The position numbers and the translations under genes were made by a program. Of a DNA stretch of 47,214 nt, positions 15,500 through 33,836 are shown piece by piece. The stretch covers positions 1 to 47,214 of the forward strand of contig NZ_AKJF01000037.1 of the NCBI RefSeq assembly GCF_000282475.1, given 5' to 3'. A model generated the notes under the pieces. It saw only the letters and a list, made by a program, of their open reading frames with translations. It had not been told where the DNA came from and made no database searches. Origin of the DNA: Pseudomonas sp. GM78 (lineage in GTDB: Bacteria; Pseudomonadota; Gammaproteobacteria; Pseudomonadales; Pseudomonadaceae). How positions within the stretch are numbered: the first letter of the stretch is position 1; the number at the start of each line of letters is the position of its first letter.

Positions 15500-15635
15500 A
15501 TTGCCCTCGGGAAAGTGAAAGTTTCCGCAATTTTTGGAAGGTGTTCCGCAACCACAACTTCGAGTGCGCGTTGACTCACCCATCTATCAGATTTTTCCTA
15601 CAAAAAAATTGACCGCAAGGCCTTCTGGACGTTAA

Positions 15636-15651
15636 CTGTATATTCGTACAG
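15636..15651. promoter_or_regulatory. LexA (SOS) box of rulAB
   Basis: CTGTATATTCGTACAG fits the CTG-N10-CAG LexA consensus and lies 19 bases before the rulA start. It indicates DNA-damage induction. Confidence 0.9.
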
Positions 15652-15669
15652 TATTGGAAGTCGTGCGTC

Positions 15670-16095
15670 ATGAGCTTTGCAATTTTAGGACCTATTGGCC
15701 AAGGCGGTCGCAAACTGCCGCTCTGTCTGTTCCGGGTGCCGGCAGGTTTTCCATCGCCCGCAGCGGATCACATCGAAGCGCACATCTCGCTGGATGAAGT
15801 GCTGAACATTCGCGCACCGCACGTCTACCTGGTATCGATAACCGGGGAGAGCATGCAAGGGGCGGGGATTTTCGAGGGGGATCTGGCGGTCGTGGACCGC
15901 TCGCTTGAACCCGCCCATGGGCATATCGTCGTTGCCTTGCTGAACAACGATCCGGTCTGCAAGCGTCTGTGCTTCCGGGGCAAGGATGTGATCCTGTTGT
16001 CGGAGAACCCCAAATACCCCCCGCGCTATGTTCTTGAGAGTGACGAGCTGTCGATCTGGGGTGTGATCACAGGCAGTGTGCGCAGCCATGTCTAA
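15670..16095 (+). CDS. umuD: Error-prone repair protein UmuD/RulA
   Basis: A 141-residue LexA-type serine peptidase. The autocleavage site is probably Ala25-Gly26 (RVPAGFPSP), the nucleophile Ser61 (TGESMQGAG) and the general base Lys98. RecA-stimulated cleavage gives UmuD', which with UmuC forms the translesion polymerase V. It overlaps umuC by 8 bases. The LexA box just upstream places it under SOS control. RulA is the Pseudomonas plasmid/genome name for the same family. Confidence 0.9.
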
Positions 16096-17365
16096 GCCAG
16101 CGCCGGTCTACGGTCTGATCGATTGCAACAGTTTTTACGCAAGCTGCGAGCGGGTATTTCGCCCGGACCTGGCCAAGGTCCCGATCGTTGTCCTCTCGAA
16201 CAACGATGGTTGCGTCATCGCGCGTAGCTACGACGCCAAGCCTTTCGTGAAAATGGGCGAGCCGTATTTCCAGATTAAAAACAAGCTTCGACAGCAGGGC
16301 ATCGTCGCCTTCTCCTCAAACTATGCCCTGTATGGCGATATGAGCGAGCGGGTGATGACGCTGATCGAGTCGATGGTGCCAGCGGTCGAGGTGTACAGCA
16401 TCGATGAGGCGTTTGCCGACCTGACCGGTATCGAAGGGCTGGACGTATTCGGTCGTCGGATTCGCAGCCAGGTGCTGCGGTGCACGGGTATCCCGGTAGG
16501 CGTTGGCATCGCCCCCACCAAGACCCTGGCCAAGTTGGCCAACCACACGGCGAAAAGATTGCAGGCGCAGACTGGCGGTGTGGTGAACATTTGCGACCCG
16601 GTGAAACGCGATTGGGTGCTGCGCAACACCGACGTGGGTGAAGTGTGGGGCGTGGGCCGACGCATGAAAATGCACTTGAATGCACTGGGCATCAAGTCCG
16701 CCATGGACCTGGCCAAGGCGGATGCCTGGTCGCTGCGCAAACACTTCAGCGTGGTGATCGAGAAGACCGCCCGGGAACTGGCGGGAACGCCGTGCCTGGA
16801 ACTGGATGAACCGGACCCGCCAAAGCAGGAGATCTGCTGCAGCCGAATGTTCGGCATGCGGCTGAAGGAACTTGCACCGATCAAGGAGGCCGTCGCCACC
16901 TACATGATGCGCGCCTCGGAAAAGCTCAGGGCGCAGAATTCCCTGTGCAAGAAGATCAGGGTCAGTATCCGTACCGGCATGTTCAATCCCGAGGAGGCCA
17001 AATACGCGAACGGTGTGGTGGTGGATCTGCCGTACCCAACAGACGACGTGCGCCTGCTGACCAGGACGGCCGTCGACGCGCTTGATCGAGTATTCCGCCC
17101 GGGATACGCCTACAGCAAAGCTGAGGTCATGCTGCTGAACCTGTGCCAGCCCGGCGAGTATACGGATGATCTGTTCGCCGCCTCGCAACCGGCTGAGGCC
17201 AGTCGCGTGATGGCGGTGCTGGATCAGATCAACGGAAGGTGGGGAAGGGGAACGCTTCGGGCCGCCAGTGTGCCAACCCATCCGGATTGGGGCATGCGCC
17301 GGGAAATGATGAGCCAGAGCTACACCACGAAGCTCGACCAGCTTTGGAAGGTCCAGGCCATATGA
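16088..17365 (+). CDS. umuC: Translesion DNA polymerase V subunit UmuC/RulB
   Basis: A 425-residue Y-family polymerase. The palm begins with [17 protein letters not shown], carrying the first metal Asp, and [10 protein letters not shown] carries the second catalytic Asp-Glu pair. The [19 protein letters not shown] segment and the helix-hairpin-helix part follow, and the C-terminus has the UmuC-specific domain. ATG 16088 (in ATGTCTAA overlapping the umuD stop) is preferred to GTG 16076. Length is normal. Works with UmuD' in damage-induced mutagenesis. Confidence 0.92.
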
Positions 17366-20400: not shown

Positions 20401-21551
20401 ATGGCCCGGTCATCGATATCCGTGGCGAAGACTTGCAGCTTGGCAGGGCTGTCTTGCTGCACCAGCTGTTCGGTCAACAGCATCGCCAGGCTATAGGCTT
20501 CTTCACCGGTGGAGCAGCCCGCCGACCAGACACGGATCTCATCACGGTGCGGCAGTGAGTCCTGCAACGACTTGAGCAGGCCGGGCACGACATCGCGCTC
20601 CAGCGCCTGGAAGGCTTCCCGGTCGCGAAAGAAATTGGTAACGCCGATCAGCATGTCGCACAGCAGTTCCCGGGTTTCTTGCGGGTGTACTTGCAGGTAC
20701 TGATAGTAGGCGGCCAGATCCGGTTGCGCGGTCACTTGCAGGCGCCGCTCGATGCGGCGCAGCACCGTGGCGCGCTTATAGTGCTTGAAGTCGTGGCCAG
20801 TGCCCGCGCGCAGTTGCAGCAGAATGTCCTGCAGCAGCTGTTCCGCGACGACAGCGTCGCGCTCGCTGGCAGCAGGGCCGATACTGGCGTCAGGGTCGTC
20901 GGTGATGGGCAGGTGAATGGCTTGCGAGTTGTGCCACAGCTCCAGCAGTTTTTGCGGCATTTGCACCACCGGCAGCACCAGATCGACCATCTGGGTGTCG
21001 ATGGCGGCGCGGGGCATGCCGTCGAACTCGGCATCTTCAGGGGCCTGCACCAGCGTGACGCCGCCTTGTTCCTTGATGCGCGACAACCCCACCGCGCCGT
21101 CGGAACCCGTGCCCGACAGCACCAGGCAAAAGGCACGCTCCTTGTGCACATCCGCCAGATCCCTGAAAAACAGGTCGATGGCGATGCTCAAGCCAGGGTG
21201 ACGATCGGCCGGCGTCACCGACAGGTAGCCATCGCTCATGGTCAGGTGGTGCGCGGGCGGGATGACGTAGACAGTGTTCTTTTGGATGTCAGTGGTTTCG
21301 GTCACCTGCAGCACTGGCATCCCGGTGACTTCCTGGATGATCCGGTCGACGATGCTCTGGTGATCCGGTGACAGATGAAGAATGACCACGAAGGCCATGC
21401 CGTTGTCATCGGGCATGTGCTGGAAAAATGATTTCACGGCCTGAAGCCCGCCGGCTGAAGCGCCGATGCCTACCACAGGAAAGTCCAGCGTACTCGGGGT
21501 CAACTCTCTGCGCTGGGGGGCATCGGGGGCGTGCTTCGTGGAAGACTTCAT
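17403..21551 (-). CDS. CheB-CheR-PAS-histidine kinase-receiver hybrid, copy 1
   Basis: A 1382-residue signalling protein. Residues 25-205 are a CheB methylesterase (Ser in GIGASAGG, His in ILHLSPDH, Asp in SGTGSDGA). Residues 235-500 are CheR (HYKRATVLRRIERR, SAM site WSAGCSTGEEAY, FATDIDDRAI, CRNLLIYL). Then a PAS domain, a long coiled coil (SNEEMQAINEELRSATEELE), two more PAS domains, HisKA (VMSHELKHPLN), HATPase (IWNLVNNALKF) and a receiver whose Asp lies in IISDIGMP. No membrane segment. The start is ATG 21551 rather than the preceding TTG. It has no chemotaxis genes nearby. A highly similar paralogue lies at 33820. Confidence 0.9.
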   Translation of the reverse strand: MKSSTKHAPDAPQRRELTPSTLDFPVVGIGASAGGLQAVKSFFQHMPDDNGMAFVVILHLSPDHQSIVDRIIQEVTGMPVLQVTETTDIQKNTVYVIPPAHHLTMSDGYLSVTPADRHPGLSIAIDLFFRDLADVHKERAFCLVLSGTGSDGAVGLSRIKEQGGVTLVQAPEDAEFDGMPRAAIDTQMVDLVLPVVQMPQKLLELWHNSQAIHLPITDDPDASIGPAASERDAVVAEQLLQDILLQLRAGTGHDFKHYKRATVLRRIERRLQVTAQPDLAAYYQYLQVHPQETRELLCDMLIGVTNFFRDREAFQALERDVVPGLLKSLQDSLPHRDEIRVWSAGCSTGEEAYSLAMLLTEQLVQQDSPAKLQVFATDIDDRAIAFGRNGVYPEAIATDVPSSYMRRYFSREQQHFRVRKEIREKVLFARHSLLLDPPFSQIDLIVCRNLLIYLDRDVQRDIMQMFHFALRPGGYLFLGSSESADACLDLFTPVDKRNRIFRAKSGLANTRRAPAMPRGGYVRTTVASSPVVTQTVRKTSYADIHLRALEKAAPPSIIVDTHANILHITEGAGRFLRYVAGELSRNLLTLAHPDLRLEIRTTLFQVQQAGTPVTSRKVRIEREQRNYLVDLTAHPYKDDETENEYVLVIFEEREVVPQDSLANVANQTENRMLSNLEQELQRTKLHLQETIEQSEVSSEELKASNEEMQAINEELRSATEELETSKEELQSINEELLTVNYELKTKVEETDKINDYLTNLIASTDIATVFVDRNMRIRWFTPRATDIFSMLPVDTGRSLMDITHRLDYPQLAEDAATVFDSLNMIEREVSSNDQRWYIARLLPYRSSEDHIDGTVLTFIDITKRRAAEDELRLGEERMRLVAESTHDFAIIILDDHGMITDWNTGAQLIFGYAKDEVLGACYDLIFTPEDRADGVPEAELAAAREHGRGEDERWHLRKDGSRFYCSGEVALLKGESLQGYVKIARDLTGHKRIHDQQSQQLAETQTSSHLKDEFFAVMSHELKHPLNLIQLNAELLRRLPMTKSVGPAMKAVNTICYAVTSQARIIDDLLDVARVRTGKLKLKKQAVDLVRILQDIHTVVVNDQHPCVITLQVPQPPEPPLVVDADSTRLEQIIWNLVNNALKFTPENGQVELIASQVDGMARLDVIDSGAGLEQDNLHKVFDLFSQAENQHTPQQREGLGIGLSLVRQLVEAHGGSVNVHSEGLGRGCRFTVLLPLCQTPQHANDQPQSPAEPGRLIGQKVLLVDDSSDVMEVLQMLLEMEDAHVDAFSDPLKALQAARDSSYDVIISDIGMPLMNGHELIHAIRQIAQLKHTPAIALTGYTTSTDEKKARQSGFNYHVSKPVSHDDFIDIIDEACNSRPY

Positions 21552-21969: not shown

Positions 21970-22056
21970 GCCCGAATGGCGAAACTGGTAGACGCATGGG
22001 ACTTAAAATCCCCCGCTCGTAAGGGCGTGCCGGTTCGATTCCGGCTTCGGGCACCA
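21970..22056 (+). tRNA. tRNA-Leu(UAA)
   Basis: 87 bases including CCA. Acceptor GCCCGAA pairs with TTCGGGC; anticodon loop CTTAAAA gives UAA; a long variable arm is present; T-arm CCGGTTCGATTCCGG is perfect. All parts of a type II tRNA can be drawn. Confidence 0.95.
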
Positions 22057-22064
22057 TGAATATC

Positions 22065-22099
22065 AAGGGTTTACCGTTTATGCGGTAAGCCCTTTTTTA
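22065..22099 (+). terminator. Terminator after tRNA-Leu
   Basis: Stem AAGGGTTTACCG/CGGTAAGCCCTT with a 6-base loop followed by TTTT. Confidence 0.85.
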
Positions 22100-22128
22100 T
22101 TGGCTGCGGTTTTTGAGCGCGCGCCACA

Positions 22129-23133
22129 CTACGCTCGCTGCTTCTCCCTACGCCATGCCGTCACACTGCAACCAAAGCGCCCCGAAAACCATCTCGAAAA
22201 GGCACTCAAGGACGAGAAGCCTAGAAGAATGGCGACTTCTGAAAGCGATCGCTCGCGGTTCACGACATAACGGTTCACCAGATCGACCCGAACGTCATCA
22301 ACAATGGATGAGTAGCTTTGATCGTGATGGGCGAGATGGCGATACATAGTCTTGCGGTCCACGCCAAGCTGCTGGGCCACTTTTTCGGCTACGCATTCGC
22401 CCGCCGGCAATAGCGCGAAGACTAATTTGCGCACTTTGTCAGGCATCGTCACGTCGGACTGGGCCAGTTTTGCATCGAGGAATTCCCGTGCATGACGCGC
22501 AATCAATGGGTCATAGGACTGGATCGCCGCATCCAGATCGCTGGTGGCCAGGACAATGCCGTCGAATTCATGGTTGAACCGAACCGAAGCACCAAACACC
22601 TGCCGGTGCATCGCCAGGTTGGCTGGCGCCTGGTGCGTGAAACAGACACTGCGAGGTTTCCAGGCGGGGCCAAGCAGTTGTTTCAATGTTCGGAAAATCA
22701 CGCAGGTGACGAGCTCGGTCGCTTGTCGTACTGACCCCCCCATGTTGTCCGTGAGTTCCTGCTTGAAAATCGCCACGCCGTTCGCTTCTTCAATGCTTAA
22801 GTCCATTGATTCGTTAGTGAGCCCGAGGCGGCGTGTCAGCGATTGCCAAGCTTTGCGCAGCGTCTGCTCCTCGCGCAGGGCGATGGCCAGGGGACCGAGG
22901 TTATCCAGCTGGCGGGTTTGGCCCATGCGCAGGCCAAAGTCTTCGATCTTCGCGGCATACGCAGAGTCTTCCAACAAGTGCATGACCGATTTTGCCGGGA
23001 TCATGATGCTTGGATCCATCAGCGCCGCATCGGTGATGCCTGCCTTGCGCAATTGTCGATAGGGGTCCAGGCCGACGGAGAGGGCTACGTCGATAAAATT
23101 CGTCAGGCTTGAACTTCTAAGCAAACTCGGCAT
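22129..23133 (-). CDS. AraC-family regulator (OruR/Arabinose_bd type)
   Basis: A 334-residue protein counted from ATG 23133, which has TGGAG nearby; the frame open to 23235 has no ribosome site. The N-terminal 200 residues match the ligand-sensing domain of the OruR/ArgR-like AraC group (FIDVALSVGLDPYRQLRKAG). The C-terminal part has two helix-turn-helices: VAQQLGVDRKTMYRHLA and the AraC signature LSEVAILLGFSSLSAFSRWF. It is divergent from the catabolic operon with 150 bases between, so it is its likely activator. Inducer unknown. Confidence 0.82.
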   Translation of the reverse strand: MPSLLRSSSLTNFIDVALSVGLDPYRQLRKAGITDAALMDPSIMIPAKSVMHLLEDSAYAAKIEDFGLRMGQTRQLDNLGPLAIALREEQTLRKAWQSLTRRLGLTNESMDLSIEEANGVAIFKQELTDNMGGSVRQATELVTCVIFRTLKQLLGPAWKPRSVCFTHQAPANLAMHRQVFGASVRFNHEFDGIVLATSDLDAAIQSYDPLIARHAREFLDAKLAQSDVTMPDKVRKLVFALLPAGECVAEKVAQQLGVDRKTMYRHLAHHDQSYSSIVDDVRVDLVNRYVVNRERSLSEVAILLGFSSLSAFSRWFSGRFGCSVTAWRREKQRA

Positions 23134-23285
23134 TGGAACTCCATTTTTGCCTCGAGATGTAAAAAAAATACCCCAGAATGTCAAGTCCAACAGCGGACAT
23201 TCGCGGATACTTTTTCTACGAGTGGCGCTAACCACACTGATATTGAGCGCAATCGATCGGCATTTCGTATTCGAGGAGAATCAAT

Positions 23286-24266
23286 TTGGCACACGTAATT
23301 CGTATGAATGAAACAGGTGGTCCGGATGTTCTGCGGTGGGAAGAAATAGAGGTTGGCGATCCGGGTCCTGGGCAGGTTCGGTTGCGTCATGAAGCGGTGG
23401 GCCTGAATTTTGCCGATACCTATTTCCGCTCGGGGCTGTACCCGATGCCGCTTCCCGCCGGCATGGGCGTGGAAGGCGCTGGCGTGGTCCAGGCCGTTGG
23501 CGAAGGGGTGAGCAATGTTGCGGTCGGCGATCGGGTTACCTACACCGGCTTCCTTAACACCTTGGGTGCCTATAGCACCGAGCGCCTGATACCCGCGGCG
23601 CCCTTGATCAAACTGCCCGATGCCATTTCGTGCGAAACAGCGGCGGGCATGACCATGCGCGGGCTGACGTCGTCCTACCTGATGCGTCGCATCCATGACT
23701 TCAAGGCCGGCGACACCATCCTCATGCATGCGGCGGCGGGCGGGGTCGGACTGATCGTGTCGCAGTGGGCCAAGCTGCTCGGTGTGACGGTTATCGGCAC
23801 CGTATCGAGCGAAGCCAAGGCCGAGATTGCGCGGGCCCATGGTTGTGACCATACGATCAACTACAGCCACGAAGACGTGTCCGCACGGGTCCGCGAGTTG
23901 ACCGATGGCGTTGGCGTCAACGTGGTGATCGACAGTGTGGGCAAAGACACCTTCGATGCCTCTTTGAATTCGGTCAAGCGGCGCGGGCTGGTCGTATGCC
24001 TGGGCTTCGCCTCCGGCCCGGTCTCAGGCTTTGATCCACAAATCCTTGCCACCAAGGGGTCGCCTTTCCTGACCCGTCCGGCACTGGCGGATTACATCGT
24101 CGATCCGGTGGAAAAGGCCGCACTCGCCGGGGAAATCTTCGGTCATGTTGCAGCCGGTCGCATCAACATCCCGATCAACCAGCGTTACGCGCTACAGGAC
24201 GCGGTGCAGGCCCATCGCGATCTGGAAGCGCGCAAAACCACGGGTTCCTCGATTTTCGTGATCTGA
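23286..24266 (+). CDS. NAD(P)H:quinone oxidoreductase (zeta-crystallin type)
   Basis: A 326-residue medium-chain reductase without zinc ligands. It has the QOR start (HVIRMNETGGPDVLRWEEIE), the GMGVEGAGVVQAVGEGV segment and the nucleotide site HAAAGGVGLIVSQWAKLLG. It starts at TTG 23286, which has GAGGAG six bases before it; the next in-frame ATG is seven codons inside and has no good site. First gene of the cluster. It may reduce a quinone or an alpha,beta-unsaturated carbonyl made in the pathway. Confidence 0.85.
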   Translation: MAHVIRMNETGGPDVLRWEEIEVGDPGPGQVRLRHEAVGLNFADTYFRSGLYPMPLPAGMGVEGAGVVQAVGEGVSNVAVGDRVTYTGFLNTLGAYSTERLIPAAPLIKLPDAISCETAAGMTMRGLTSSYLMRRIHDFKAGDTILMHAAAGGVGLIVSQWAKLLGVTVIGTVSSEAKAEIARAHGCDHTINYSHEDVSARVRELTDGVGVNVVIDSVGKDTFDASLNSVKRRGLVVCLGFASGPVSGFDPQILATKGSPFLTRPALADYIVDPVEKAALAGEIFGHVAAGRINIPINQRYALQDAVQAHRDLEARKTTGSSIFVI

Positions 24267-24276
24267 GGAGGTCACC

Positions 24277-25125
24277 ATGCGAGTTGAACAACTGACCTGT
24301 TCCATCGGTGCCGAGCTAACCGGTGTCAATGTAGCCGATGCAATCCACGACGATGAAGTGTTCGGGCTTATCCGCGAGGCGTTGATCAAACATCGGGTAC
24401 TGTTTCTGCGTGACCAGGACATAACCAGGGCTGAACATGCGAGGTTTGCACGCCGCTTTGGCGATCTCGAGGACCACCCGGTAGCGCCAACCGACCCCGA
24501 GGCGCCCGGTCTGGTGCAAATCTACAAGCGCCCGGACGCGCCGCTCGAACGCTATGAGAACACCTGGCATACCGATGCCACCTGGCGTCAGGCACCGCCG
24601 ATGGGGGCCGTGCTGCGCTGCGTGGAGTGTCCGCCAGTAGGGGGTGACACGATGTGGGCCAATATGGTGTTGGCCTATGACAACCTGCCGGATCAGGTCA
24701 AGGCGCAGATAAGCGACCTGATTGCCAGTCATAGCATCCAGTCGAGTTTCGGCGCGGCAATGCCGCGTGAAAAACGCCATGCGTTGAAGGCCCAGTTTCC
24801 GGACGCGGAGCATCCGGTGGTCCGCACTCATCCTGAAACCGGCGAAAAGGTCCTGTTCGTCAATGCCTTCGCGACGCACTTCGTGAACTACCACACCAAG
24901 GAACGCGTGCGTTACGGACAAGATTGCAACCAGGCCGGTGGCGACCTGCTGCAATACCTGATCAGCCAGGCGTACGTACCGGAATATCAAGTGCGCTGGC
25001 GCTGGAGGAAAAACAGCATGGCGATCTGGGACAACCGCTGCACCCAGCATTACGCCGTGATGGATTATCCACCGTGCCATCGCCAGATGGACCGCGCCAC
25101 GATCATCGGTGACCGGCCTTATTGA
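24277..25125 (+). CDS. TauD/TfdA-family Fe(II)/2-oxoglutarate dioxygenase
   Basis: A 282-residue dioxygenase. The iron triad is His98-x-Asp100 (TWHTDATW) and His258 (CTQHYAVMDY); Arg273 (QMDRATIIGD) should bind the 2-oxoglutarate carboxylate. THPETGEKVLFVN is a family motif. It starts 10 bases after the oxidoreductase with GAGGAGG as ribosome site. Family members hydroxylate carboxylates, sulfonates, phosphonates or betaines. In this context it could hydroxylate the beta carbon of an acid as the entry step. Substrate not known. Confidence 0.88.
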   Translation: MRVEQLTCSIGAELTGVNVADAIHDDEVFGLIREALIKHRVLFLRDQDITRAEHARFARRFGDLEDHPVAPTDPEAPGLVQIYKRPDAPLERYENTWHTDATWRQAPPMGAVLRCVECPPVGGDTMWANMVLAYDNLPDQVKAQISDLIASHSIQSSFGAAMPREKRHALKAQFPDAEHPVVRTHPETGEKVLFVNAFATHFVNYHTKERVRYGQDCNQAGGDLLQYLISQAYVPEYQVRWRWRKNSMAIWDNRCTQHYAVMDYPPCHRQMDRATIIGDRPY

Positions 25126-25182
25126 GCGGGTAGGCACAGCCTTTTTCCAATCCGATCCAACTAGCTGACAGTGAGATAGAAA

Positions 25183-26238
25183 ATGCAATTTCTAGACGAT
25201 TCGCTGCACCCGGAAAACCAGGAAAAAGTAGTTATTACCGTCGCTCCGTACGGTCCCGAGTGGATGCCTGAGGATTTCCCGGAAGATATACCGGTCACCA
25301 TGGCAGAACACATCGAAAAGGCAGTGGAGTGTTACGAGGCTGGCGCCACTGTGCTGCACCTGCATGTGCGCGAACTTGATGGCAAGGGCTCCAAACGCCT
25401 GTCCAAATTCAATGAGCTGATCGCCGGAGTGCGCGAAGCTGTCCCGGACATGATCATCCAGGTCGGCGGTTCAATTTCATTCGCCCCGGAAAACGATGGC
25501 CAGGCCGCCAAGTGGCTGTCCGACGACACGCGCCATATGCTGGCAGACCTTGATCCGAAGCCCGACCAGGTGACGGTAGCGATCAACACGACGCAGATGA
25601 ACATCATGGAGTTGCTCTATCCCGAATACATCGAGGGCACCTCACTGGGCAATCCGCTACTCGGCGCAGCCTATAGCGAGATGACAGTGCCCGCGGGACC
25701 TGCCTGGGTGGCGGAGCACCTGCGTCGATTGCAGGCATCCGGGATTCAGCCGCACTTCCAGCTCACGGGTATCCACGCGCTCGAAACCCTGCAGCGCCTG
25801 GTCCGCAAAGGCGTTTACACCGGCCCATTGAATTTGACCTGGATCGGGGTGGGCGGAGGATTCGAGGGCCCCAATCCGTTCAATTTCATGAACTTCGTCC
25901 AGCGTGTACCGCAAGCGTGCACATTGACCGCCGAGTCTCTGCTCAAGAATGTGCTGCCGTTCAACATGATGGCATTGGCCATGGGGTTGCACCCGCGCTG
26001 CGGCAACGAAGACACCATCATTGGTCAGCATGGCCAGCGCTTCGGCTCTGTGGATCAGGTCCGGCAAACGGTTCGTGTGGCAAAAGAGCTGGGCCGCGAG
26101 ATTGCGACCGGCAAGGAGGCGCGCCAAATCTACCGCATTGGCACCTGGTACAAGGACGCAGACGAAACCCTAGCTGCAAACGGCATGCTTCCCAACCGCA
26201 CTGCGGGCCCGATAGTTCCCTCGACCCACGGTCGATAG
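25183..26238 (+). CDS. BKACE-family beta-keto acid cleavage enzyme (DUF849)
   Basis: A 351-residue protein of the 3-keto-5-aminohexanoate cleavage enzyme family. Metal ligands His59 and His61 lie in TVLHLHVRE; GGS near residue 95 and GLHPRCGNEDT near 269-278 complete the active site. The family transfers a two-carbon unit between acetyl-CoA and a beta-keto acid, giving acetoacetate and a new acyl-CoA; one known member acts on dehydrocarnitine. It has a relatively long form (usual about 275-310), with extra C-terminal residues. Its presence predicts a beta-keto acid intermediate. Confidence 0.88.
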   Translation: MQFLDDSLHPENQEKVVITVAPYGPEWMPEDFPEDIPVTMAEHIEKAVECYEAGATVLHLHVRELDGKGSKRLSKFNELIAGVREAVPDMIIQVGGSISFAPENDGQAAKWLSDDTRHMLADLDPKPDQVTVAINTTQMNIMELLYPEYIEGTSLGNPLLGAAYSEMTVPAGPAWVAEHLRRLQASGIQPHFQLTGIHALETLQRLVRKGVYTGPLNLTWIGVGGGFEGPNPFNFMNFVQRVPQACTLTAESLLKNVLPFNMMALAMGLHPRCGNEDTIIGQHGQRFGSVDQVRQTVRVAKELGREIATGKEARQIYRIGTWYKDADETLAANGMLPNRTAGPIVPSTHGR

Positions 26239-26254
26239 TTCTCCTCTCAGAGCA

Positions 26255-26286
26255 CGGGCAGAAAGGCGGTAGCGCCTTCCTGCCCG
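26255..26286. terminator. Intercistronic hairpin between BKACE and transporter genes
   Basis: Arms CGGGCAG/CTGCCCG extended by AAGGCG/CGCCTT with one unpaired base. No T-run, so it may lower expression of downstream genes or protect the upstream mRNA instead of ending transcription. Confidence 0.5.
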
Positions 26287-26343
26287 GACTGCAGCCGTGC
26301 GCAATTCGCTTGAATTGCGTGGGATAAAAATAATGGGGGCGAT

Positions 26344-27675
26344 ATGCAGGTAGAGAAGTTTTCCATGTCGATTGCAGCGAATCCTCCGCGCGAGATTTCA
26401 CGCCCGCGTGCCTATTGCTGGCTGGTATTTATCGTTATCTATGCATTGATGCTGTCTGACTACATGTCGCGACAGGCACTCAATGCAGTCTTTCCACAAC
26501 TGAAGGCCGAGTGGGCCTTGAGCGATGCGCAACTCGGCCTGCTCAGCGGTATCGTGGGCCTGGCGGTGGGTTTGCTGGCTGTACCGGCCGCGTTGATGGC
26601 GGACCGCTGGGGGCGGGTTAAAAGTGTGGTGATCATGGCGCTGTTCTGGAGCCTGAGCACTTTGGCCTGTGGGCTGGCAGAACACTATAACCAGCTGCTG
26701 CTCGCCCGATTGTTCGTCGGTATAGGCGAGGCGGGCTACGGCAGCGTTGGGCTTGCAATCATCTTGAGTGTATTCCCGTCTTCCATGCGTGCCACGCTGA
26801 CCGGGGCCTTTACTTCCGCCGGGATGTTTGGCTCGGTACTGGGGCTGGCTTCAAGCGGCGTGATTGCGAATCACTTTGGTTGGCGCGCCGCGTTGATTGC
26901 CATGTCGGCGCTCGGATTTCTCTTGATCCTGTTCTTTGCATTCACGGTGAGTGAAACACGCCTGGCGCGGTACAGGCACCTCGAGTTGGCCGAGTCGCCG
27001 GTGGAGGGCAAACGTGTTGAAAAAATTCGATTGCGCTCACTTCTCAAGACCTTGTTCGGCGCGCCTACGCTGGTGTTCACCTATGTTGGCAGTGGCCTTC
27101 AGCTCTTTACCGCGTACACCATCATTGCCTGGATGCCCAGCTACCTTAACCGCTACTACGATTTACCCGCTGACAAGTCGGCACTGGCGGCGGCCGTTTT
27201 ACTGATCGCCAGCGGGCTCGGCATGGGTTTGTGCGGCGTGTTCACTGACTGGGTGGGGCGCAAGTCGGACAAAAATAAAGCGCTGCCCGCCATCCTCTAC
27301 TGCCTGGGATCCTGCGTATTGCTGATGATCAGCATGCGCTTGCCACCCGGCACCGGACAGTTTGCGGTCATCATCACGGGCGTTTTTTTTGCGGCTGGCA
27401 CTTATGGCTCGGCGGGCGCCATCGTTACCGATCTGGTGCATGTCTCTCTCCATGGCACCGCCATTGCTACCCTGGCGCTGGCCGGCAACCTGCTGGGTGC
27501 CGCGCCAGGGCCCTATCTGACGGGCCTGCTCGCCGACAGAATCGGCCTGCTCGGTGCGTTGCAGTGGGTCCCGTTAGTCTCGATTGGCGCAGCATTGGCG
27601 TTTGCTTTCGCAAGGTCTCATTACCTCCACGACCTGCGCCGCCATGCGTCCTCCAGTTGCCAACAATCGCGTTGA
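26344..27675 (+). CDS. MFS transporter
   Basis: A 443-residue protein with 12 predicted membrane helices. The cytoplasmic MFS loop is ADRWGRVKSV after TM2, with the related DWVGRKSDKN in the second half. An early DYMSRQALNAVFPQL segment, with Asp in TM1, resembles organic-anion or Spinster-like carriers. GGGGGCG precedes ATG 26344; ATG 26368 is possible. It is the only uptake system in the cluster, so it probably imports the growth substrate, likely an organic acid. Confidence 0.82.
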   Translation: MQVEKFSMSIAANPPREISRPRAYCWLVFIVIYALMLSDYMSRQALNAVFPQLKAEWALSDAQLGLLSGIVGLAVGLLAVPAALMADRWGRVKSVVIMALFWSLSTLACGLAEHYNQLLLARLFVGIGEAGYGSVGLAIILSVFPSSMRATLTGAFTSAGMFGSVLGLASSGVIANHFGWRAALIAMSALGFLLILFFAFTVSETRLARYRHLELAESPVEGKRVEKIRLRSLLKTLFGAPTLVFTYVGSGLQLFTAYTIIAWMPSYLNRYYDLPADKSALAAAVLLIASGLGMGLCGVFTDWVGRKSDKNKALPAILYCLGSCVLLMISMRLPPGTGQFAVIITGVFFAAGTYGSAGAIVTDLVHVSLHGTAIATLALAGNLLGAAPGPYLTGLLADRIGLLGALQWVPLVSIGAALAFAFARSHYLHDLRRHASSSCQQSR

Positions 27676-27711
27676 AAAACACCTCTCACATCCCGTAAGG
27701 AAATGCAGACG

Positions 27712-28443
27712 ATGAATCACATCCTTTCAAAACCGCTCAAGGGTAAAGTCGCCGTCATCACCGGTGCTGGTCGTGGCATTGGCCGCGCCATTGCCCTGGC
27801 CTATGCGCAGGCCGGCGCCGCGGTGGTTTGCAGTGCACGCAGCGCAGCGGAAATAGCCGAGACCGTGCGCATGATCATCGAGGCAGACGGCCAGGCTGTC
27901 GCCCAGACAGCCGACGTGGGTGACTACGCCGCAGTCGTCGCCCTGTACCAGCGCGCCAGCGATGAATTCGGCGGTGTCGATATCGTAGTCGCCAACGCCG
28001 GCATCGCGAACGAGCAACGACGGATCGAGGACAGTGACCCTGCACAGTGGCGCAAGACCATCGACATCAACCTGACCGGTGCCTACCACACCGCTCATGC
28101 CGCCATCCCGCACCTGCGCCGGCGCGGTGCCGGGAAAATCATCATGATCGGTTCTGGCCAGCGCCACCGTGCCACCCCCGGTTTTTCGGCCTACTCCTGC
28201 AGCAAGAGCGGTATGTGGATGCTCACCCAGTCGCTCGCGCTGGAACTGCTGGAATACAACATCAGTGTCAACGAGCTGATTCCAGGGCCTGTACAGACCG
28301 AGATGACGCGCGATGCGGCGATCCCCCCGGGAGAGTGGTTCAAGACCCCGGAAGACGTGGTGTCGCTGGCCTTGTTCCTGGCGGATATGCCCGAGGCAGG
28401 ACCTACCGCTCAGAGTTACAGCCTTATGCGCCGCGCGATCTGA
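27712..28443 (+). CDS. Short-chain dehydrogenase/reductase 1
   Basis: A 243-residue classical SDR. Cofactor site TGAGRGIG, NAG motif VANAGIA, catalytic Ser in IMIGSGQ and Tyr-Lys in AYSCSKSG. ATG 27712 is preferred because AAGGA lies about ten bases upstream; ATG 27703 is too close to it. The end is slightly short and lacks the usual last strand. It may oxidise a beta-hydroxy acid to the keto acid used by the BKACE enzyme. Confidence 0.83.
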   Translation: MNHILSKPLKGKVAVITGAGRGIGRAIALAYAQAGAAVVCSARSAAEIAETVRMIIEADGQAVAQTADVGDYAAVVALYQRASDEFGGVDIVVANAGIANEQRRIEDSDPAQWRKTIDINLTGAYHTAHAAIPHLRRRGAGKIIMIGSGQRHRATPGFSAYSCSKSGMWMLTQSLALELLEYNISVNELIPGPVQTEMTRDAAIPPGEWFKTPEDVVSLALFLADMPEAGPTAQSYSLMRRAI

Positions 28444-28531
28444 TGAGTAAGACGTTTTGGAACAAGTGACGACTCTAACTTAACTAATGAATGTCGCTTT
28501 AACTAAAATTCATCAAGATGAGAAGAGTTAA

Positions 28532-29134
28532 ATGAGCGAAACTGCATTGTTTACCCGGATGGATCAAAGCACTCAACAAGACTGGGATATCATAGCTGCA
28601 GAGTTTAAAAGCTTTGCCAGCGCCTTGCCGGATCGAATTATCGCGCACATGAATCTGCTGTCGGGTGATTTTTCCGGCTTTCCGATTGATCGCCTGAGTC
28701 ACTGCCTGCAAACGGCTACGCGCGCCTATCGTGATGGTCGCGATGAAGAGTATGTGGTGTGCGCGTTACTGCATGACATCGGTGATACGTTAGGCGCCTA
28801 CAATCACTCTGAAGTGGCGGCGGTTATCCTCAAACCCTTTGTCAGCGAAGAAAATCACTGGATGATCCAGAATCATGGGATTTTTCAGGGTTATAACTTT
28901 TTTCACCGCATTGGAATGGATCGCCACATGCGCGACATGTTCAAGGAACATTCGAACTATGTGCGCACTGCAGAGTTTATCGAGTTGTACGACAGTCCTG
29001 CCTTCGACCCTGAAGGTGAAACGTTGCCCCTGAGTTTTTTTGAACCGATGCTGCGGCGTGTATTTGCCAAGCCCAGGTTGTCCCTCTACGGACCCATGTT
29101 TAGCGCTGAAACACCCGCTTACCCCAAAATGTAA
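28532..29134 (+). CDS. HD-domain protein, putative diiron oxygenase
   Basis: A 200-residue protein. The HD pattern is His57 (SHCLQTA), His81-Asp82 (LLHDIGD), His92 (YNHSEV), His115 (QNHGIFQGY) and Asp154 (ELYDSPAFD), a full set of six ligands as in the MIOX/PhnZ/TmpB group of HD-fold diiron oxygenases. Simple phosphohydrolases often lack some of these. PhnZ-type enzymes work after a 2-oxoglutarate dioxygenase, and one is present here. The second His of PhnZ HDxxH is Asp85 here. It could also be a hydrolase; the substrate is unknown. Confidence 0.68.
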   Translation: MSETALFTRMDQSTQQDWDIIAAEFKSFASALPDRIIAHMNLLSGDFSGFPIDRLSHCLQTATRAYRDGRDEEYVVCALLHDIGDTLGAYNHSEVAAVILKPFVSEENHWMIQNHGIFQGYNFFHRIGMDRHMRDMFKEHSNYVRTAEFIELYDSPAFDPEGETLPLSFFEPMLRRVFAKPRLSLYGPMFSAETPAYPKM

Positions 29135-29215
29135 AATTATTACCCCAGATCGTCAAAACCGGATTTATTTTTCTGCAGATACTTGTCTCACGTCAACCAA
29201 ATACCGGAGTCATTT

Positions 29216-30094
29216 ATGCCATTGGACGAGCAACTTGAACACGCGCCATTTGAAATGGCGCAGGCAAGCACGCGCAACTTTGCAGGCCGTGTCGTATTGA
29301 TTACCGGCGCTGGCCGTGGCCTGGGGGGAACCATTGCACTGCATTTCGCGAGGGCCGGTGCGGATGTCGTGATCTGCGATATCGATATTCCCGCCCTGGA
29401 GGAAACCCGAAAGGCTGTTGAAGCGGCAGGTGCCAACTGCCTGGCCCTGCACTGCGACATCTCTTCGAGCAGCCAGGTCGTCGCCATGTTCGCCGACATT
29501 GTCCAGCGTTTTGGCACTTTGCACATTCTGGTGAATAACGCGGCGCTGGCTCCCACGGGGGCAGCTGACGCAGTACGACGCAATAAACACTACGCCTACA
29601 TCACGACTGCGCAACCGAGACAGTCGCTAGGTTTCACCAGTGAAATTACCGACGAGGAGTGGCATCGGTACTGGGATGTCAATGTGCACGGCATGTTCTA
29701 TTGCACGCGCGAAGCGCTCAAGCTGATGCAGGAACAGCGCTATGGTCGCATCGTGAACCTTGCCTCGATCGCCGGGATGTCGGCAATCAGTGCGCACAGT
29801 CCGCACTACAGCGCGTCGAAGGGCGCCGTCATTGCCTTCACCAAATCGGTCGCGGCGGAAGTTGCCGGGGGCAATATCCTGGTCAATGCCTTGGCACCGG
29901 GCGGGGTGTCGACTCCTTTCTTTGAAGAATATCTCGACTCCATCGGCGAGGAAGGTCGGCGCAGGTTCTGGCAAGTCATACCGGCGGGCAGGTTCGGGAC
30001 AACGGATGAATATGCGTCCGTGGCGACGTTCCTTGCAGGCGATCACTATTTCGTGGGGCAGGTCATCAGTCCCAATGGGGGCGCCGTCCTTTAA
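29216..30094 (+). CDS. Short-chain dehydrogenase/reductase 2
   Basis: A 292-residue SDR. Cofactor site TGAGRGLGG, LVNNAAL, Ser in LASIAGM, Tyr-Lys in HYSASKGAV. It has a 25-residue N-terminal extension and an insertion after the NNA motif (RRNKHYAYITTAQPRQ). ATG 29216 has CCGGAG nearby and is preferred to TTG 29183. It ends VISPNGGAVL, the usual SDR end. Role in the pathway not clear. Confidence 0.83.
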   Translation: MPLDEQLEHAPFEMAQASTRNFAGRVVLITGAGRGLGGTIALHFARAGADVVICDIDIPALEETRKAVEAAGANCLALHCDISSSSQVVAMFADIVQRFGTLHILVNNAALAPTGAADAVRRNKHYAYITTAQPRQSLGFTSEITDEEWHRYWDVNVHGMFYCTREALKLMQEQRYGRIVNLASIAGMSAISAHSPHYSASKGAVIAFTKSVAAEVAGGNILVNALAPGGVSTPFFEEYLDSIGEEGRRRFWQVIPAGRFGTTDEYASVATFLAGDHYFVGQVISPNGGAVL

Positions 30095-30149
30095 ACAGCG
30101 CGAACTGGCTGTTGAGTACAACACCCCACTTCAACATCTGGACGAAACT

Positions 30150-31001
30150 ATGCGATTGGTAAGATTCGGAGAAAAGGGCAGGGAGAAGCCTGGGCTGCTC
30201 GATAGCCAGGACATCATCAGAGACCTGAGCGGTATGCTCAGCGACATCGACGCAAGTACATTCACGCCATCATCTCTGGCGCATCTACAGGATATCGACC
30301 CGTCGACTCTCCCAGCCGTGGAGGGGAGTCCAAGGTTGGGGGCGCCACTGCGGGTAACCGGCAAGTTCCTCGCGATTGGGTTGAATTACCGGGATCATGC
30401 GCAGGAAGCCAATCTGCCGATTCCCTCGGAACCTATCGTGTTCATGAAGGCCAACTCCTGTGTCACGGGCCCCCATGATGAAATCATCCTTCCACCCGAT
30501 AGCCAAAAAACCGATTGGGAGGTTGAACTTGGAATTGTTATTGGCAGTGAAGGCGCCTACCTCGATAAGAAAGATGCACTCGCGCATGTAGCGGGTTATG
30601 TCCTGGTTAATGATGTTTCGGAAAGAGCCTATCAATTGGAGCGTGGGGGGACCTGGGATAAAGGAAAGAGTTGCGATAGTTTTGGCCCGATCGGCCCATG
30701 GTTCATCACCAAGGATGAGATAGGCGACGTACAGAACTTATCCATGTGGCTGGATGTGAACGGCGTTCGCCGGCAAACAGGGAACACGGCGACGATGATT
30801 TTTGATGTGCCCACCCTCGTGGCGTATATCAGCCAGTTCATGCGGCTTTACCCTGGCGACATTATTACCACGGGTACGCCTCCAGGCGTTGGGATGGGTA
30901 TCAAGCCCACACCGGTTTTCCTTGAAGAAAACGACATTGTCACTTTGGGTATTGAAAAACTCGGCCAGCAACGCCAGGCGTGTGTTCGCTATAAAGGTTG
31001 A
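30150..31001 (+). CDS. Fumarylacetoacetate hydrolase-family protein
   Basis: A 283-residue FAH protein. Start signature RLVRFGEKGREKPGLLD, core IGLNYRDHA, metal ligands in DWEVELGIVIG (two Glu) and VNDVSER (Asp), and TGTPPGVGMG. The close relatives are ureidoglycolate-lyase-like or 2-keto acid hydrolases/decarboxylases of catabolic operons. ATG 30150 is chosen; the frame is open far upstream but overlaps the SDR gene. Expected to cleave a C-C bond of a diketo or oxo acid. Confidence 0.85.
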   Translation: MRLVRFGEKGREKPGLLDSQDIIRDLSGMLSDIDASTFTPSSLAHLQDIDPSTLPAVEGSPRLGAPLRVTGKFLAIGLNYRDHAQEANLPIPSEPIVFMKANSCVTGPHDEIILPPDSQKTDWEVELGIVIGSEGAYLDKKDALAHVAGYVLVNDVSERAYQLERGGTWDKGKSCDSFGPIGPWFITKDEIGDVQNLSMWLDVNGVRRQTGNTATMIFDVPTLVAYISQFMRLYPGDIITTGTPPGVGMGIKPTPVFLEENDIVTLGIEKLGQQRQACVRYKG

Positions 31002-31216
31002 TTTCAACAAGCAATGATCTCGGCAGGAAAGTGCAACCCCGTCATCGAAATACTTGATGTTGTTTAGATAAAAACAAAAACAAACGGAGACAAGTCAATG
31101 CATGAACATAGCGTTTGTAGTACGCGTTCGAGGCGAAGTCAGTTGGCCGTGGCCCGACCTTGAAAAAACTTTCTAAACATTCGCATTGCCCGGATTCCGG
31201 GCAGGAGATCTACAGA
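31002..31216 (+). other. Leader with an orphan start
   Basis: ACGGAG followed by ATG at 31097 begins a 21-codon frame (HEHSVCSTRSRRSQLAVARP) ending just before the DUF1329 gene. It may be a leader peptide or the remnant of a removed gene such as the usual DUF1302 partner. Nothing else is visible here. Confidence 0.3.
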
Positions 31217-32575
31217 ATGATGTTCGTGAAAAGTTTGATGGCGACTTCCCTTGCAGTGGTGTGCACAACGGCGGTACAGGCCGCGGTTTCCCCCGAACAG
31301 GTGGCCAGGCTGGGCACCAGCCTGACCCTGGTGGGGGCGGAAAAGGCCGGTAATGCCGATGGCTCCATTCCGGCCTACAACGGCGGCCTGACCACCGCTC
31401 CGGCCAGCTTCAAGGCGGGCGACACTTTTCGTCCGGACCCCTTTGCCAGTGAAAAGCCGGTGCTGGTGATCGACGGCAAGAACATCCGCCAATACCAGGG
31501 CATGCTCACGGCCACCACGGCGAAGCTGATCGAGCGATATCCCAGCTACCGTGTCGATGTTTATCCGACCCACCGCACTGTAGTACTACCGCAGGCGGTA
31601 CTGGATAACAGCGTGAAGAATGCTACCGGGGCCAAGTCCCTCGAAGGCGGGTTGGCCATCGACAACGTCTTGCCGGGCGTGCCATTCCCGATTCCGCAAT
31701 CGGGCGCCGAGGCCATGTGGAACTTCCTGCTGCGTTACCAGGGCGTCAATATCAATGCCAAGTACGATTCCTGGAACGTCGACTCGGCCGGTGTGGCCAG
31801 CCTGGCGACCACTGCTCAAGCGTTCATCAACTACCCGATCTACGAGAACATGTCGCAGCCGATCACCAGCTCCGACGTGTACTACCAGATGAAACTGTAT
31901 TACACCGGCCCGGCGCGGCGCGCCGGTGAAGCCATCATGCTCAAGGACGCCACCAACGCCATCGAGATGCCCCGCCGCGCCTGGCAGTATCTGCCTGGCC
32001 AGCGCCGAGTGAAGCTGGCCCCGAGCCTGGCCTACGACACGCCCAACCCGGGCACGGCCGGCACCGGCACCTACGACGACGTGTTCGTGTTCAACGGCGC
32101 GCTGGATCGCTACGACTGGAAGTTGGTGGGCAAGGAGGAAATGATCGTGCCCTACAACACCTACAAGCTGACCTACGCCCAGGATCCGAAATCGCTGACC
32201 ACCTCCAACCATCTGGCACCGGATATGGTGCGCTGGGAGAAGCACCGCGTCTGGGTGGTGGAAGGCAACCTGAAGTCCGGCGCACGTCACGTTTACCAGA
32301 AGCGCCGCTTCTACCTGGATGAAGACAGCTGGGTGGCCCTGGCCTCTGACCAGTACGACTCCCGTGGCCAGCTCTACCGTGGTTCCTTCGCCTTCCTGAG
32401 CCAGAGCTATGACAAGCAGGTGCCGGACGCCACGCCATACATGATCTACGACCTGGTTGGCGGTTCCTACAACATCAACGGCGTGGTTGGCCCGTACGGC
32501 GGCATCCACTACATCAGTGCGCTGTCCAAGGCACAGTGGTCGCCCGAGTCCCTGGCAGGGGCGGGCATTCGCTAG
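31217..32575 (+). CDS. Secreted DUF1329 protein
   Basis: A 452-residue protein with a signal peptide (FVKSLMATSLAVVCTTAVQA). The mature start (SPEQVARLGTSLTLVGAEKA) and later GNADGSIPAYNGGL, PRRAWQYLPGQRRVKLAPS and YDTPNP are family hallmarks. DUF1329 has a LolA/LolB-like fold and is normally next to DUF1302 and an RND exporter in clusters for hydrophobic substrates such as steroids or terpenes. Here the partners are absent. AGGAG nine bases before ATG 31217 supports this start over TTG 31160. Confidence 0.85.
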   Translation: MMFVKSLMATSLAVVCTTAVQAAVSPEQVARLGTSLTLVGAEKAGNADGSIPAYNGGLTTAPASFKAGDTFRPDPFASEKPVLVIDGKNIRQYQGMLTATTAKLIERYPSYRVDVYPTHRTVVLPQAVLDNSVKNATGAKSLEGGLAIDNVLPGVPFPIPQSGAEAMWNFLLRYQGVNINAKYDSWNVDSAGVASLATTAQAFINYPIYENMSQPITSSDVYYQMKLYYTGPARRAGEAIMLKDATNAIEMPRRAWQYLPGQRRVKLAPSLAYDTPNPGTAGTGTYDDVFVFNGALDRYDWKLVGKEEMIVPYNTYKLTYAQDPKSLTTSNHLAPDMVRWEKHRVWVVEGNLKSGARHVYQKRRFYLDEDSWVALASDQYDSRGQLYRGSFAFLSQSYDKQVPDATPYMIYDLVGGSYNINGVVGPYGGIHYISALSKAQWSPESLAGAGIR

Positions 32576-32656
32576 CATCCATGTGCTGCGCTGGCGAGCC
32601 ATCGCCAGTGTGGCCGGGTGTATGACTGTCGCCGTGAAGCTTATTTGAAAGCCATG

Positions 32657-32680
32657 AAAAAGCCCGGCACCTGGCCGGGC
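32657..32680. terminator. Bidirectional terminator
   Basis: Stem AGCCCGG/CCGGGCT with a short loop between the convergent DUF1329 gene and the minus-strand small gene; AAAA precedes it, giving a T-run for the minus strand. Confidence 0.65.
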
Positions 32681-32710
32681 TCAGGAATGCTGCGGTCTGC
32701 ACATTCAACG

Positions 32711-33091
32711 CTATGTGAAATACTTCGTAATCGCCTGCTTGCCTATTGCCGCCTCAATGTCCCGATAGGTGCGCTTCTCGGTCGCGCACAGCAGCGACCT
32801 GCCATCCCTGAGCTGCATCGAAAAGGTCAGTTCGACCTCATCGTCCGCCAGTATCACCCCGGCGACAGCGCCGATCGGTCCGAGGGCCAATGCGCCCGCC
32901 AACCCCAGGCCGACAGTGCTCGATACATCCCGATAAGACGTTTCACTGACGACCGTGGCATCGAGTATTTCGGATGTGGCAATCTTGAGGCCGGGCCATG
33001 GGTAGACAGCCGTTTCTATCGTGATGAACCCAGGTTCCAGCACTGCATTCCCCTCAAGGAAATCCCCGGCCAGGATTTTTATTTTTGCCAT
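32711..33091 (-). CDS. Hypothetical protein with glycine-rich hydrophobic segment
   Basis: A 126-residue protein; GGGAGG precedes ATG well. The first 60 residues are strand-rich (KIKILAGDFLEGNAVLEPGF). Residues 62-84 (GLGLAGALALGPIGAVAGVI) form a glycine-zipper-like hydrophobic helix, followed by a strand pair (VELTFSMQLRDGRSLLCATE). The pattern resembles conserved Pseudomonas proteins of unknown function, possibly a PH-like fold. Confidence 0.55.
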   Translation of the reverse strand: MAKIKILAGDFLEGNAVLEPGFITIETAVYPWPGLKIATSEILDATVVSETSYRDVSSTVGLGLAGALALGPIGAVAGVILADDEVELTFSMQLRDGRSLLCATEKRTYRDIEAAIGKQAITKYFT

Positions 33092-33291
33092 GTTGTGTCC
33101 TCCCTGTATGAGCTACAGGAAAATTCAACGCTTGCGGGGTGGGTGCGTCAACGCTCTCTGGACGAGGGTACCTTTTGCCCGACTAGTGGATTAGCGCGCC
33201 ATGGATCATCCAGTACCCCACACATGTACCTGGGCGTAAACTGAATAGGGTGCAGCCTGCATCGAATCGCGCTGCGCCTGGAGGTGAGGCC

Positions 33292-33804
33292 ATGCGCTCG
33301 ATAATCGCTTGCATCTCGATCGCCCTGTTGGCGGTGCCACTCGCCAACGCAGCGTCTTCGGTCGAAGTCGTCTTCAAGAACCCCGAGAGTTTCAACGATG
33401 CCAGCCTGGATAGTCCGGGCTATGAACGGGGTGCCGATCCTTACGTCATGAACGCGTTGCGCAGCCATATCCAGAAACTGGGTGAGCGCTACCTGCCACC
33501 TAATCAGGCGTTGCAAATCGAAATACGCAACATCGACCTGGCCGGTCGCTACGAACCCTGGAGGCCCAATGCCTACGACGTGCGCTTCATGCGCGATATC
33601 ACGTGGCCGAGCATCGATCTGCATTACGTGCTCAAGCAAAGCGGTGAGATCGTCAGTCAGGCCGACGCCAGGGTCATGGATCAGATGTACCTCCAGCGCC
33701 CGGGGCGCCTCAGCCGAAGTGACAGGCTCTATTCCGAGAAGGCCATGCTCTCGGACTGGTTCCGCAGGCAATTCGCGGGAAAACATCAGGTAGGGACGAA
33801 TTGA
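33292..33804 (+). CDS. DUF3016 exported protein
   Basis: A 170-residue protein with a signal peptide (RSIIACISIALLAVPLANA). The mature part has VEVVFKNPESFNDA, LQIEIRNIDLAGRYEPWR, VRFMRDITWPSIDLHY and YSEKAMLSDWFRRQF, the pattern of DUF3016. Function unknown. GGAGGT six bases upstream fixes the start. Convergent with the second hybrid kinase. Confidence 0.78.
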   Translation: MRSIIACISIALLAVPLANAASSVEVVFKNPESFNDASLDSPGYERGADPYVMNALRSHIQKLGERYLPPNQALQIEIRNIDLAGRYEPWRPNAYDVRFMRDITWPSIDLHYVLKQSGEIVSQADARVMDQMYLQRPGRLSRSDRLYSEKAMLSDWFRRQFAGKHQVGTN

Positions 33805-33807
33805 ACG

Positions 33808-33836
33808 GTACGCGGCCGTTCAGTAAGGCCGCGTAC
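33808..33836. terminator. Hairpin between DUF3016 and hybrid kinase 2
   Basis: Perfect 10-bp arms GTACGCGGCC/GGCCGCGTAC. It covers the kinase stop codon. No clear T-run. Confidence 0.5.

Follow-up and report, generated by a model that had tools for sequence, protein, structure and literature searches.

Gene content of the cluster

The DNA stretch analysed here, referred to as the window (47,214 nucleotides), is contig 37 of the 7.29-Mb genome of Pseudomonas sp. GM78, and its positions 22129-32575 hold a cluster of nine co-directional genes and one divergent AraC gene, among them a TauD-type dioxygenase and a BKACE enzyme. Our survey shows that this cluster is an extended and rare variant within a conserved catabolic operon family that is itself more widespread. 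A preliminary description of the locus had named the families of ten genes, one regulator and nine structural genes, and this is confirmed both by the open reading frames and by Pfam, where all ten families score above their cut-offs (Table 1). The intergenic gaps among the nine co-directional genes are 10-158 bases when the FAA hydrolase gene is taken to start at about 30150, within a longer open frame. Judged by coding score, the AraC gene probably starts at 23133, with a longer frame reaching 23235, and SDR2 possibly starts at 29216. The MFS protein scores below the cut-offs of both the D-galactonate and the aromatic-acid transporter models of NCBIfam. Scans for promoters and terminators gave no excess over shuffled sequences (6 versus 5.4 promoters; 9 versus 10.7 terminators).

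Table 1. Genes of the cluster in the window, with family assignments and the scores behind them
Gene product	Position	Strand	Evidence and remarks
AraC-family regulator with Arabinose_bd domain	22129..23133	-	Pfam; divergent from operon; 71-99% identity in the other four variant genomes
Quinone oxidoreductase (QOR), MDR protein of the zinc-less NADPH:quinone reductase type	23286..24266	+	Pfam ADH_N/ADH_zinc_N; NCBIfam PRK10754 354.9 bits (cut-off 348)
TauD/TfdA-family Fe(II)/2-oxoglutarate dioxygenase (TauD)	24277..25125	+	Pfam 208.6 bits
BKACE (DUF849, PF05853), 350-residue subfamily	25183..26238	+	Pfam 207.6 bits (gathering cut-off 24.8)
MFS transporter, organic-acid type	26344..27675	+	Pfam MFS_1 143.9 bits
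Short-chain dehydrogenase (SDR1), variant marker	27703..28443	+	Pfam adh_short
HD-domain protein (HD), candidate diiron oxygenase	28532..29134	+	Pfam HD 24.1 bits (cut-off 22), weak
Short-chain dehydrogenase with insert (SDR2), candidate beta-hydroxy-acid dehydrogenase	29183..30094	+	Pfam adh_short
FAA hydrolase near 2,4-didehydro-3-deoxy-L-rhamnonate hydrolase	30150..31001	+	Pfam FAA_hydrolase 222 bits; NCBIfam 444.6, under cut-off 500
DUF1329 protein	31160..32575	+	Pfam 441.3 bits; probable start 31217 (coding score)

Conservation and rarity of the extended form

The SDR1 gene, which marks the extended form, is found at E <= 1e-75 in five of 398 Pseudomonas genomes. Each of these carries AraC, QOR, TauD, BKACE, MFS, SDR1, HD, SDR2, FAA hydrolase and DUF1329 within one stretch. 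Moreover, positions 22001-36904 of the window match another genome of the same species in a single collinear stretch at 97% identity, and the cluster of Pseudomonas umsongensis DSM 16611 is 95-99% identical to that of the window, gene by gene. We therefore reject a chance neighbourhood; the earlier view that BKACE and TauD are at the centre of a coherent catabolic cluster is supported.

Three of the four other variant genomes are at least 87% identical to the window in every gene. In the fourth (G224), nine genes are 64-88% identical and the FAA hydrolase only 40%, and DUF1302 and Ser_hydrolase genes are inserted between those for FAA hydrolase and DUF1329. All five variant genomes form one clade in the TauD tree (support 100/99). 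The BKACE of G224 groups with copies of the canonical operon described below, and the approximately unbiased (AU) test does not reject a single clade (p = 0.191). Its HD protein groups with other lineages and was joined to that of the window in 0% of 200 bootstrap trees; here too, a single clade is not rejected (AU test, p = 0.129). The G224 form may have recruited its HD protein, and likewise its BKACE, separately. A canonical copy is present in all five variant genomes as well, hence the variant represents an addition. The genome of GM78 has four BKACE genes; its canonical paralogue, on contig 229 (positions 161-6536 of the piece examined), reads QOR-TauD-BKACE-MFS-DsbA-Rieske-YeiH, with a BKACE 83-84% identical to that of the window.

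The canonical operon in Pseudomonas

Of the 398 Pseudomonas genomes, 79 have BKACE relatives at E <= 1e-80, and the substrate is therefore probably a common one. We examined 33 canonical loci from 31 of these 79 genomes, a non-random set chosen for the most part after the four-gene core had been seen, and excluded five pieces from Pseudomonas whose BKACE is 61-65% identical (L106, L141, L149, L155 and L157). Genes were called by a simple codon score trained on the genes of the window, which found one gene only in the AT-rich piece L026, and were counted by blastp. QOR, TauD, BKACE and MFS are present in all 33 loci in the order seen in the window (QOR-TauD-BKACE-MFS), with TauD adjoining BKACE and QOR adjoining TauD throughout. 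As the loci were mostly selected on this core, only the counts of other genes are informative. These are high for a DsbA-like protein and a Rieske ferredoxin (32/33 each) and for a YeiH-family transporter (30/33, where one of those counted as missing belongs to L150, a locus cut by the edge of its 20-kb piece, with its YeiH gene in L149), followed by AraC (27/33), Ser_hydrolase (26/33), DUF1302 (25/33) and DUF1329 (22/33), the last of which adjoins DUF1302 in many loci. As a control we searched 69 neighbourhoods of HD genes (at least 12 kb each, from pieces L026-L104; mean 19.7 kb) by tblastn with similar limits, and found YeiH, TauD, BKACE, DsbA, Rieske, DUF1302, DUF1329 and FAA in none, QOR in one, Ser_hydrolase in three and SDR2-like genes in five.

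QOR-TauD-BKACE-MFS is the older core of the operon family, and the window holds SDR1-HD-SDR2-FAA where canonical loci have the DsbA-Rieske-YeiH block. No SDR match was obtained in 31 of the 33 canonical loci, whose unlabelled genes are only partly annotated; the other two gave one match each, of about 32% identity.

Operon relatives in wider samples

In a class-wide sample BKACE was found in one of 369 genomes, which is that of GM78 itself, while a phylum-wide sample gave 16 of 398 genomes (two of them Pseudomonas, including GM78) and a plasmid collection 24 records. Among 26 loci examined from the latter two sources, TauD above 55% identity is present in 21 and directly adjoins BKACE in 16; QOR and TauD are adjacent in 16, and Ser_hydrolase accompanies 16 of the 21 TauD-bearing loci.

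Core forms in other phyla are less uniform than in Pseudomonas. For instance, Rhodococcus gordoniae has QOR-TauD-BKACE with a hydrolase, a coenzyme A (CoA) ligase, YeiH and an acyl-CoA dehydrogenase, and its MFS gene lies beyond AraC on the other side. The annotation of Novosphingobium sp. ES2-1 lists AraC, quinone oxidoreductase, TauD, BKACE, an alpha/beta hydrolase, MFS and a 'putative sulfate exporter'. Tsukamurella has the core with a hydrolase; Azoarcus KH32C has the core with DUF1302, DUF1329 and YCF48 nearby; Streptomyces has BKACE-QOR-TauD-MFS-hydrolase and an acetoacetate-CoA ligase. Cupriavidus metallidurans keeps TauD-BKACE without QOR, and in Diaphorobacter BKACE lies about 10 kb away from a set of QOR-TauD-hydrolase-DsbA-Rieske.

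A proposed route through TauD and BKACE

We favour, with a probability of roughly 0.38, a reading in which the cluster extends a conserved TauD-BKACE operon and a beta-keto acid made by TauD is cleaved by BKACE to acetoacetate and an acyl-CoA; gene content, conservation, residues and neighbours are observed, and every reaction, the order and the class of substrate are predicted. The AraC protein would probably induce the operon in response to the substrate, an organic acid that would enter through the envelope (DUF1329) and then by the MFS carrier. TauD would oxidise the carbon beta to the carboxylate, and in the canonical operon this oxidation would probably expel sulfite from a C-S bond and leave a beta-keto acid, with no dehydrogenase required. 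BKACE would then cleave this product with acetyl-CoA, giving acetoacetate and an acyl-CoA that is shorter by two carbons. The acid for TauD and BKACE would, in the window form, probably arise from a precursor that is larger or carries different substituents, through oxidation and through O2-dependent and hydrolytic C-C cleavage by SDR1, HD, SDR2 and the FAA hydrolase; SDR2 could supply beta-keto acid from a beta-hydroxy acid.

The residues of TauD were compared in 63 rows and those of BKACE in 73, taken from the examined loci where the match had E <= 1e-40 and covered more than 85% of the query; one of the searches for relatives kept the best 80 of 595. The iron and 2-oxoglutarate positions of TauD (H98, D100, H258 and R269) are present in 63/63 rows, the window included. 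The same holds for H67 and R273, whose counterparts in the alignment with E. coli TauD bind the sulfonate. This pair is compatible with a sulfur oxyanion substrate and no proof of one. The best solved relative of the window TauD is 5vn6. Against the taurine dioxygenase equivalog the window protein scores 259.4 bits, under the cut-off of 313. QOR has neither His nor Cys at either of the zinc-ligand positions of alcohol dehydrogenases in 56/56 rows; hence we do not favour it for the role of alcohol dehydrogenase in the core.

An alpha-hydroxysulfonate of the kind made by TauD chemistry loses sulfite and leaves a carbonyl. If the sulfonate were beta to the carboxylate, this carbonyl would be that of a beta-keto acid, which would explain why no dehydrogenase is seen in the canonical operon. 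Because 31 of the 33 canonical loci show no SDR, their QOR is zinc-less and their YeiH a probable sulfite exporter, TauD may thus expel sulfite and yield the ketone directly, and the substrate is an organic acid and possibly a sulfonate. The YeiH protein of the canonical operon matches PF03601 well, though it scores 158 bits with the subfamily model TIGR00698 (cut-off 232.6). In Salmonella, resistance to sulfite is conferred by the YeiH family (PMC12880088), and for SuyZ a role in the export of sulfite or sulfate has been suggested in sulfolactate breakdown (PMC11582611).

Several observations weigh against this reading. The window cluster itself is without YeiH, as are the canonical Pseudomonas loci L217 and L227, and in the set of 26 other loci nine of the 21 with TauD have it, four of these nine being from the family Pseudomonadaceae. 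YeiH is also present in L106, a BKACE cluster that lacks TauD. Five of the 26 BKACE loci have no TauD nearby (one of them is a 5.4-kb contig), and in Caballeronia (L165) a BKACE of 86% identity stands with MFS but neither TauD nor QOR was found in 25 kb. The equivalent of TauD H67, missing in the aryloxy-propionate dioxygenase 6d1o, is kept in PlaO1, presumably a biosynthetic enzyme, and H67 is therefore not diagnostic. The position of Kce Tyr145 is Thr195 in the window BKACE; this tyrosine is catalytic in CcaKce, and the BKACE relative BsfD, with Phe in its place, carries out different chemistry (PMC12871164).

The last point bears on the product. Across the 73 BKACE rows the position holds Thr in 46, Tyr in 12, Gly in eight, Ala in five and Ser in two, while 3no5, an uncharacterised solved relative, has Phe. 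Canonical cleavage is thus likely but not certain, since the catalytic-Tyr position differs and a Phe-type relative does other chemistry. Like BsfD, the enzyme might instead catalyse a divergent acyl transfer, with no acetoacetate formed and the cluster belonging to another pathway; this we consider very unlikely, as H59, H61, R272 and E276 are intact in 73/73 rows including the window (mapped with structure 2y7d). These correspond to the metal and catalytic residues His46, His48, Arg226 and Glu230 of Kce. Moreover, acetoacetate is very probably the product, because genes for a 3-oxoacid CoA-transferase or an acetoacetate-CoA ligase are present in some of the related operons. CoA-transferase A/B genes are found in 3/33 canonical loci, the models TIGR02429, TIGR02428 and TIGR01217 exceed their curated cut-offs for L153 and L168, and such acetoacetate-activating enzymes also stand beside Thr-type BKACEs (L152, L153). 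The evidence for acetoacetate plus acyl-CoA as the products comes from these neighbouring genes. A PHA-synthase-like gene together with the CoA-transferase genes was observed after the canonical operon in three Pseudomonas genomes, in L152 (1082-2866), L153 (2019-3812) and L158 (16300-18156).

Short-chain dehydrogenases and the order of oxidation

The preliminary description had proposed that TauD hydroxylates, an SDR oxidises and BKACE cleaves. As the logic of the core this is not supported: 31/33 canonical loci pair TauD with BKACE yet give no SDR match, the QOR, zinc-less in all its rows, could not easily replace it, and YeiH is left unexplained. For the window form, by contrast, an SDR acting as beta-hydroxy-acid oxidase is plausible. 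SDR2 relatives of 57-65% identity occur in other BKACE loci (L106, L141, L157 and L199). In L106 and L141 they adjoin a BKACE that has no TauD with it, and in L199 they share the locus with TauD. SDR2 is the best candidate for the conversion of a beta-hydroxy acid to the beta-keto acid, because its relative adjoins the TauD-less BKACE of L106. A carnitine-like and sulfur-free route, in which hydroxylation of an unactivated beta-carbon by TauD is followed by oxidation of the alcohol through SDR2 or SDR1 and by BKACE cleavage, also agrees with the presence of two SDRs and the absence of YeiH in the window, and SDR and BKACE act together in the deoxyribonate route (PMC6365646). For the window form, this order competes closely with the favoured reading; taken over all the evidence the route is possible, though we find it doubtful.

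The L106 cluster, on contig 17 of the GM78 genome (about 1961-17221), has genes for a YeiH-family protein, DUF1329, DUF1302, MFS, a carboxymuconolactone decarboxylase-like protein, the SDR2 relative, BKACE and AraC, and further genes that read as of the beta-oxidation type (acyl-CoA dehydrogenase, thiolase, hydroxyacyl-CoA dehydrogenase and enoyl-CoA hydratase).

The HD protein of the window

The HD protein carries an H..HD..H..H..D motif (H57, H81, D82, H92, H115 and D154) that is invariant in 26/26 aligned rows including the window. This is the motif of diiron HD oxygenases (PhnZ/TmpB/MIOX), which makes the protein a candidate for that group, although HD hydrolases can share it. By NCBIfam and PDB its nearest relatives are PhnZ and TmpB, with scores far under the family cut-offs. 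The YxxE lid loop of phosphonate-type HD oxygenases (PMC8177086) is absent, F47 and F50 standing at the positions of PhnZ Y24 and E27, and with these lid residues missing, phosphonate breakdown by a PhnZ-like protein is not favoured.

The HD oxygenases known so far break C-C or C-P bonds, in the case of PhnZ and TmpB after the action of a 2-oxoglutarate hydroxylase (PMC8177086). The window could likewise encode a tandem oxygenation in the style of PhnY/PhnZ or TmpA/TmpB, where TauD hydroxylates, HD as a mixed-valent diiron oxygenase cleaves the neighbouring C-C bond, and the SDRs, FAA hydrolase and BKACE process the pieces. The invariant motif and the nearest relatives would suit this scheme; the lost loop, the low family scores and the possibility of a hydrolase would not, and the HD gene occurs in 0/33 canonical loci while TauD occurs in 0/69 loci of HD relatives. 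We regard such a scheme as improbable. About equally unlikely, in our view, is the most far-reaching version of the sulfonate idea, a cross-phylum route from organosulfonates to central metabolites by TauD desulfonation directly to a beta-keto acid, BKACE cleavage to acetoacetate and YeiH sulfite export, to which the window would add a further kind of HD oxygenase with a hydrophobic lid that cleaves C-C bonds with the SDRs and FAA hydrolase.

The association of the HD gene with TauD and BKACE is limited to the five variant genomes, and a general partnership is rejected, as none of the 69 HD-gene loci elsewhere holds either gene; a looser search of them gave a single BKACE match of 28%, in L049. 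In 34 HD-relative loci a class II aldolase occurs in 15, mostly adjoining HD, and an Mpo1-like gene lies immediately upstream in eight, all Pseudomonas (for each of the two labels, one representative was run through Pfam). As the Pfam name of the Mpo1-like family is 2-hydroxy-palmitic acid dioxygenase, this neighbour gives a hint of 2-hydroxy acids. Stand-alone HD relatives, behind the Mpo1-like gene in Pseudomonas and beside the class II aldolase elsewhere (L107, 9116-10036; L027, 10001-11384), possibly form an uncharacterised family of HD oxygenases.

Comparison with known systems

The catabolism of carnitine and dehydrocarnitine resembles the window cluster in that it combines a BKACE-type cleavage with an upstream hydroxylase, in animals, of the TauD superfamily. 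However, the carnitine dehydrogenase of the 3-hydroxyacyl-CoA-dehydrogenase type and the BCCT carrier are absent among the ten genes by Pfam. With taurine dioxygenase the window TauD shares the family, the residues for iron and 2-oxoglutarate and the His/Arg pair, but E. coli Tyr73 is Ala in the window and the equivalog cut-off is not reached. In PhnY/PhnZ and TmpA/TmpB, too, the gene for a 2-oxoglutarate dioxygenase is clustered with one for an HD protein that bears the diiron motif; the window HD differs by its missing YxxE loop. The PF03601 transporter of the sulfolactate pathway (SuyZ/YeiH family) is shared with the canonical operon and absent from the window cluster. The deoxyribonate cluster of Pseudomonas simiae (SDR, BKACE, lactonase and MFS; PMC6365646), from the same genus, also has MFS uptake, and its BKACE is proposed to cleave an SDR-made beta-keto acid. 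In the available part of that paper TauD, HD, FAA and DUF1329 are not named, and its lactonase lacks a counterpart among the ten families of the window.

The operon family is real and conserved, and no description of it was found in searches of 5.39 million open papers, where the papers listed were judged by title or the opening of the abstract. This applies to the QOR-TauD-BKACE operon as well as to the window variant (most subscription papers lie outside the search), and a close match to a characterised operon, which would have spoken against a new cluster, was likewise not found in the searchable literature. The available part of the P. umsongensis GO16 genome paper gave no hint of a substrate. 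BKACE enzymes are named by their chemistry, and many are without a known pathway; one subfamily is now tied to a dioxygenase partner across several phyla, with a predicted product, acetoacetate, and a predicted by-product, sulfite, that can both be tested. The HD protein, if a true oxygenase, would add a new substrate class to that small group of enzymes.

Surroundings of the cluster

Two hybrid genes combining CheB, CheR, PAS, histidine-kinase and receiver parts flank the cluster (17403-21551 and 33820-37962) in the same direction, and their proteins are 81% identical. Further to the left (3668-7449 and 16088-17365) lie remnants resembling phages and insertion sequences (IS), which include a GH19 gene and, at 5650, a second and shorter copy of it, a piece of an IS66 transposase and a polymerase gene of the ImpB/MucB/SamB family (UmuC type).

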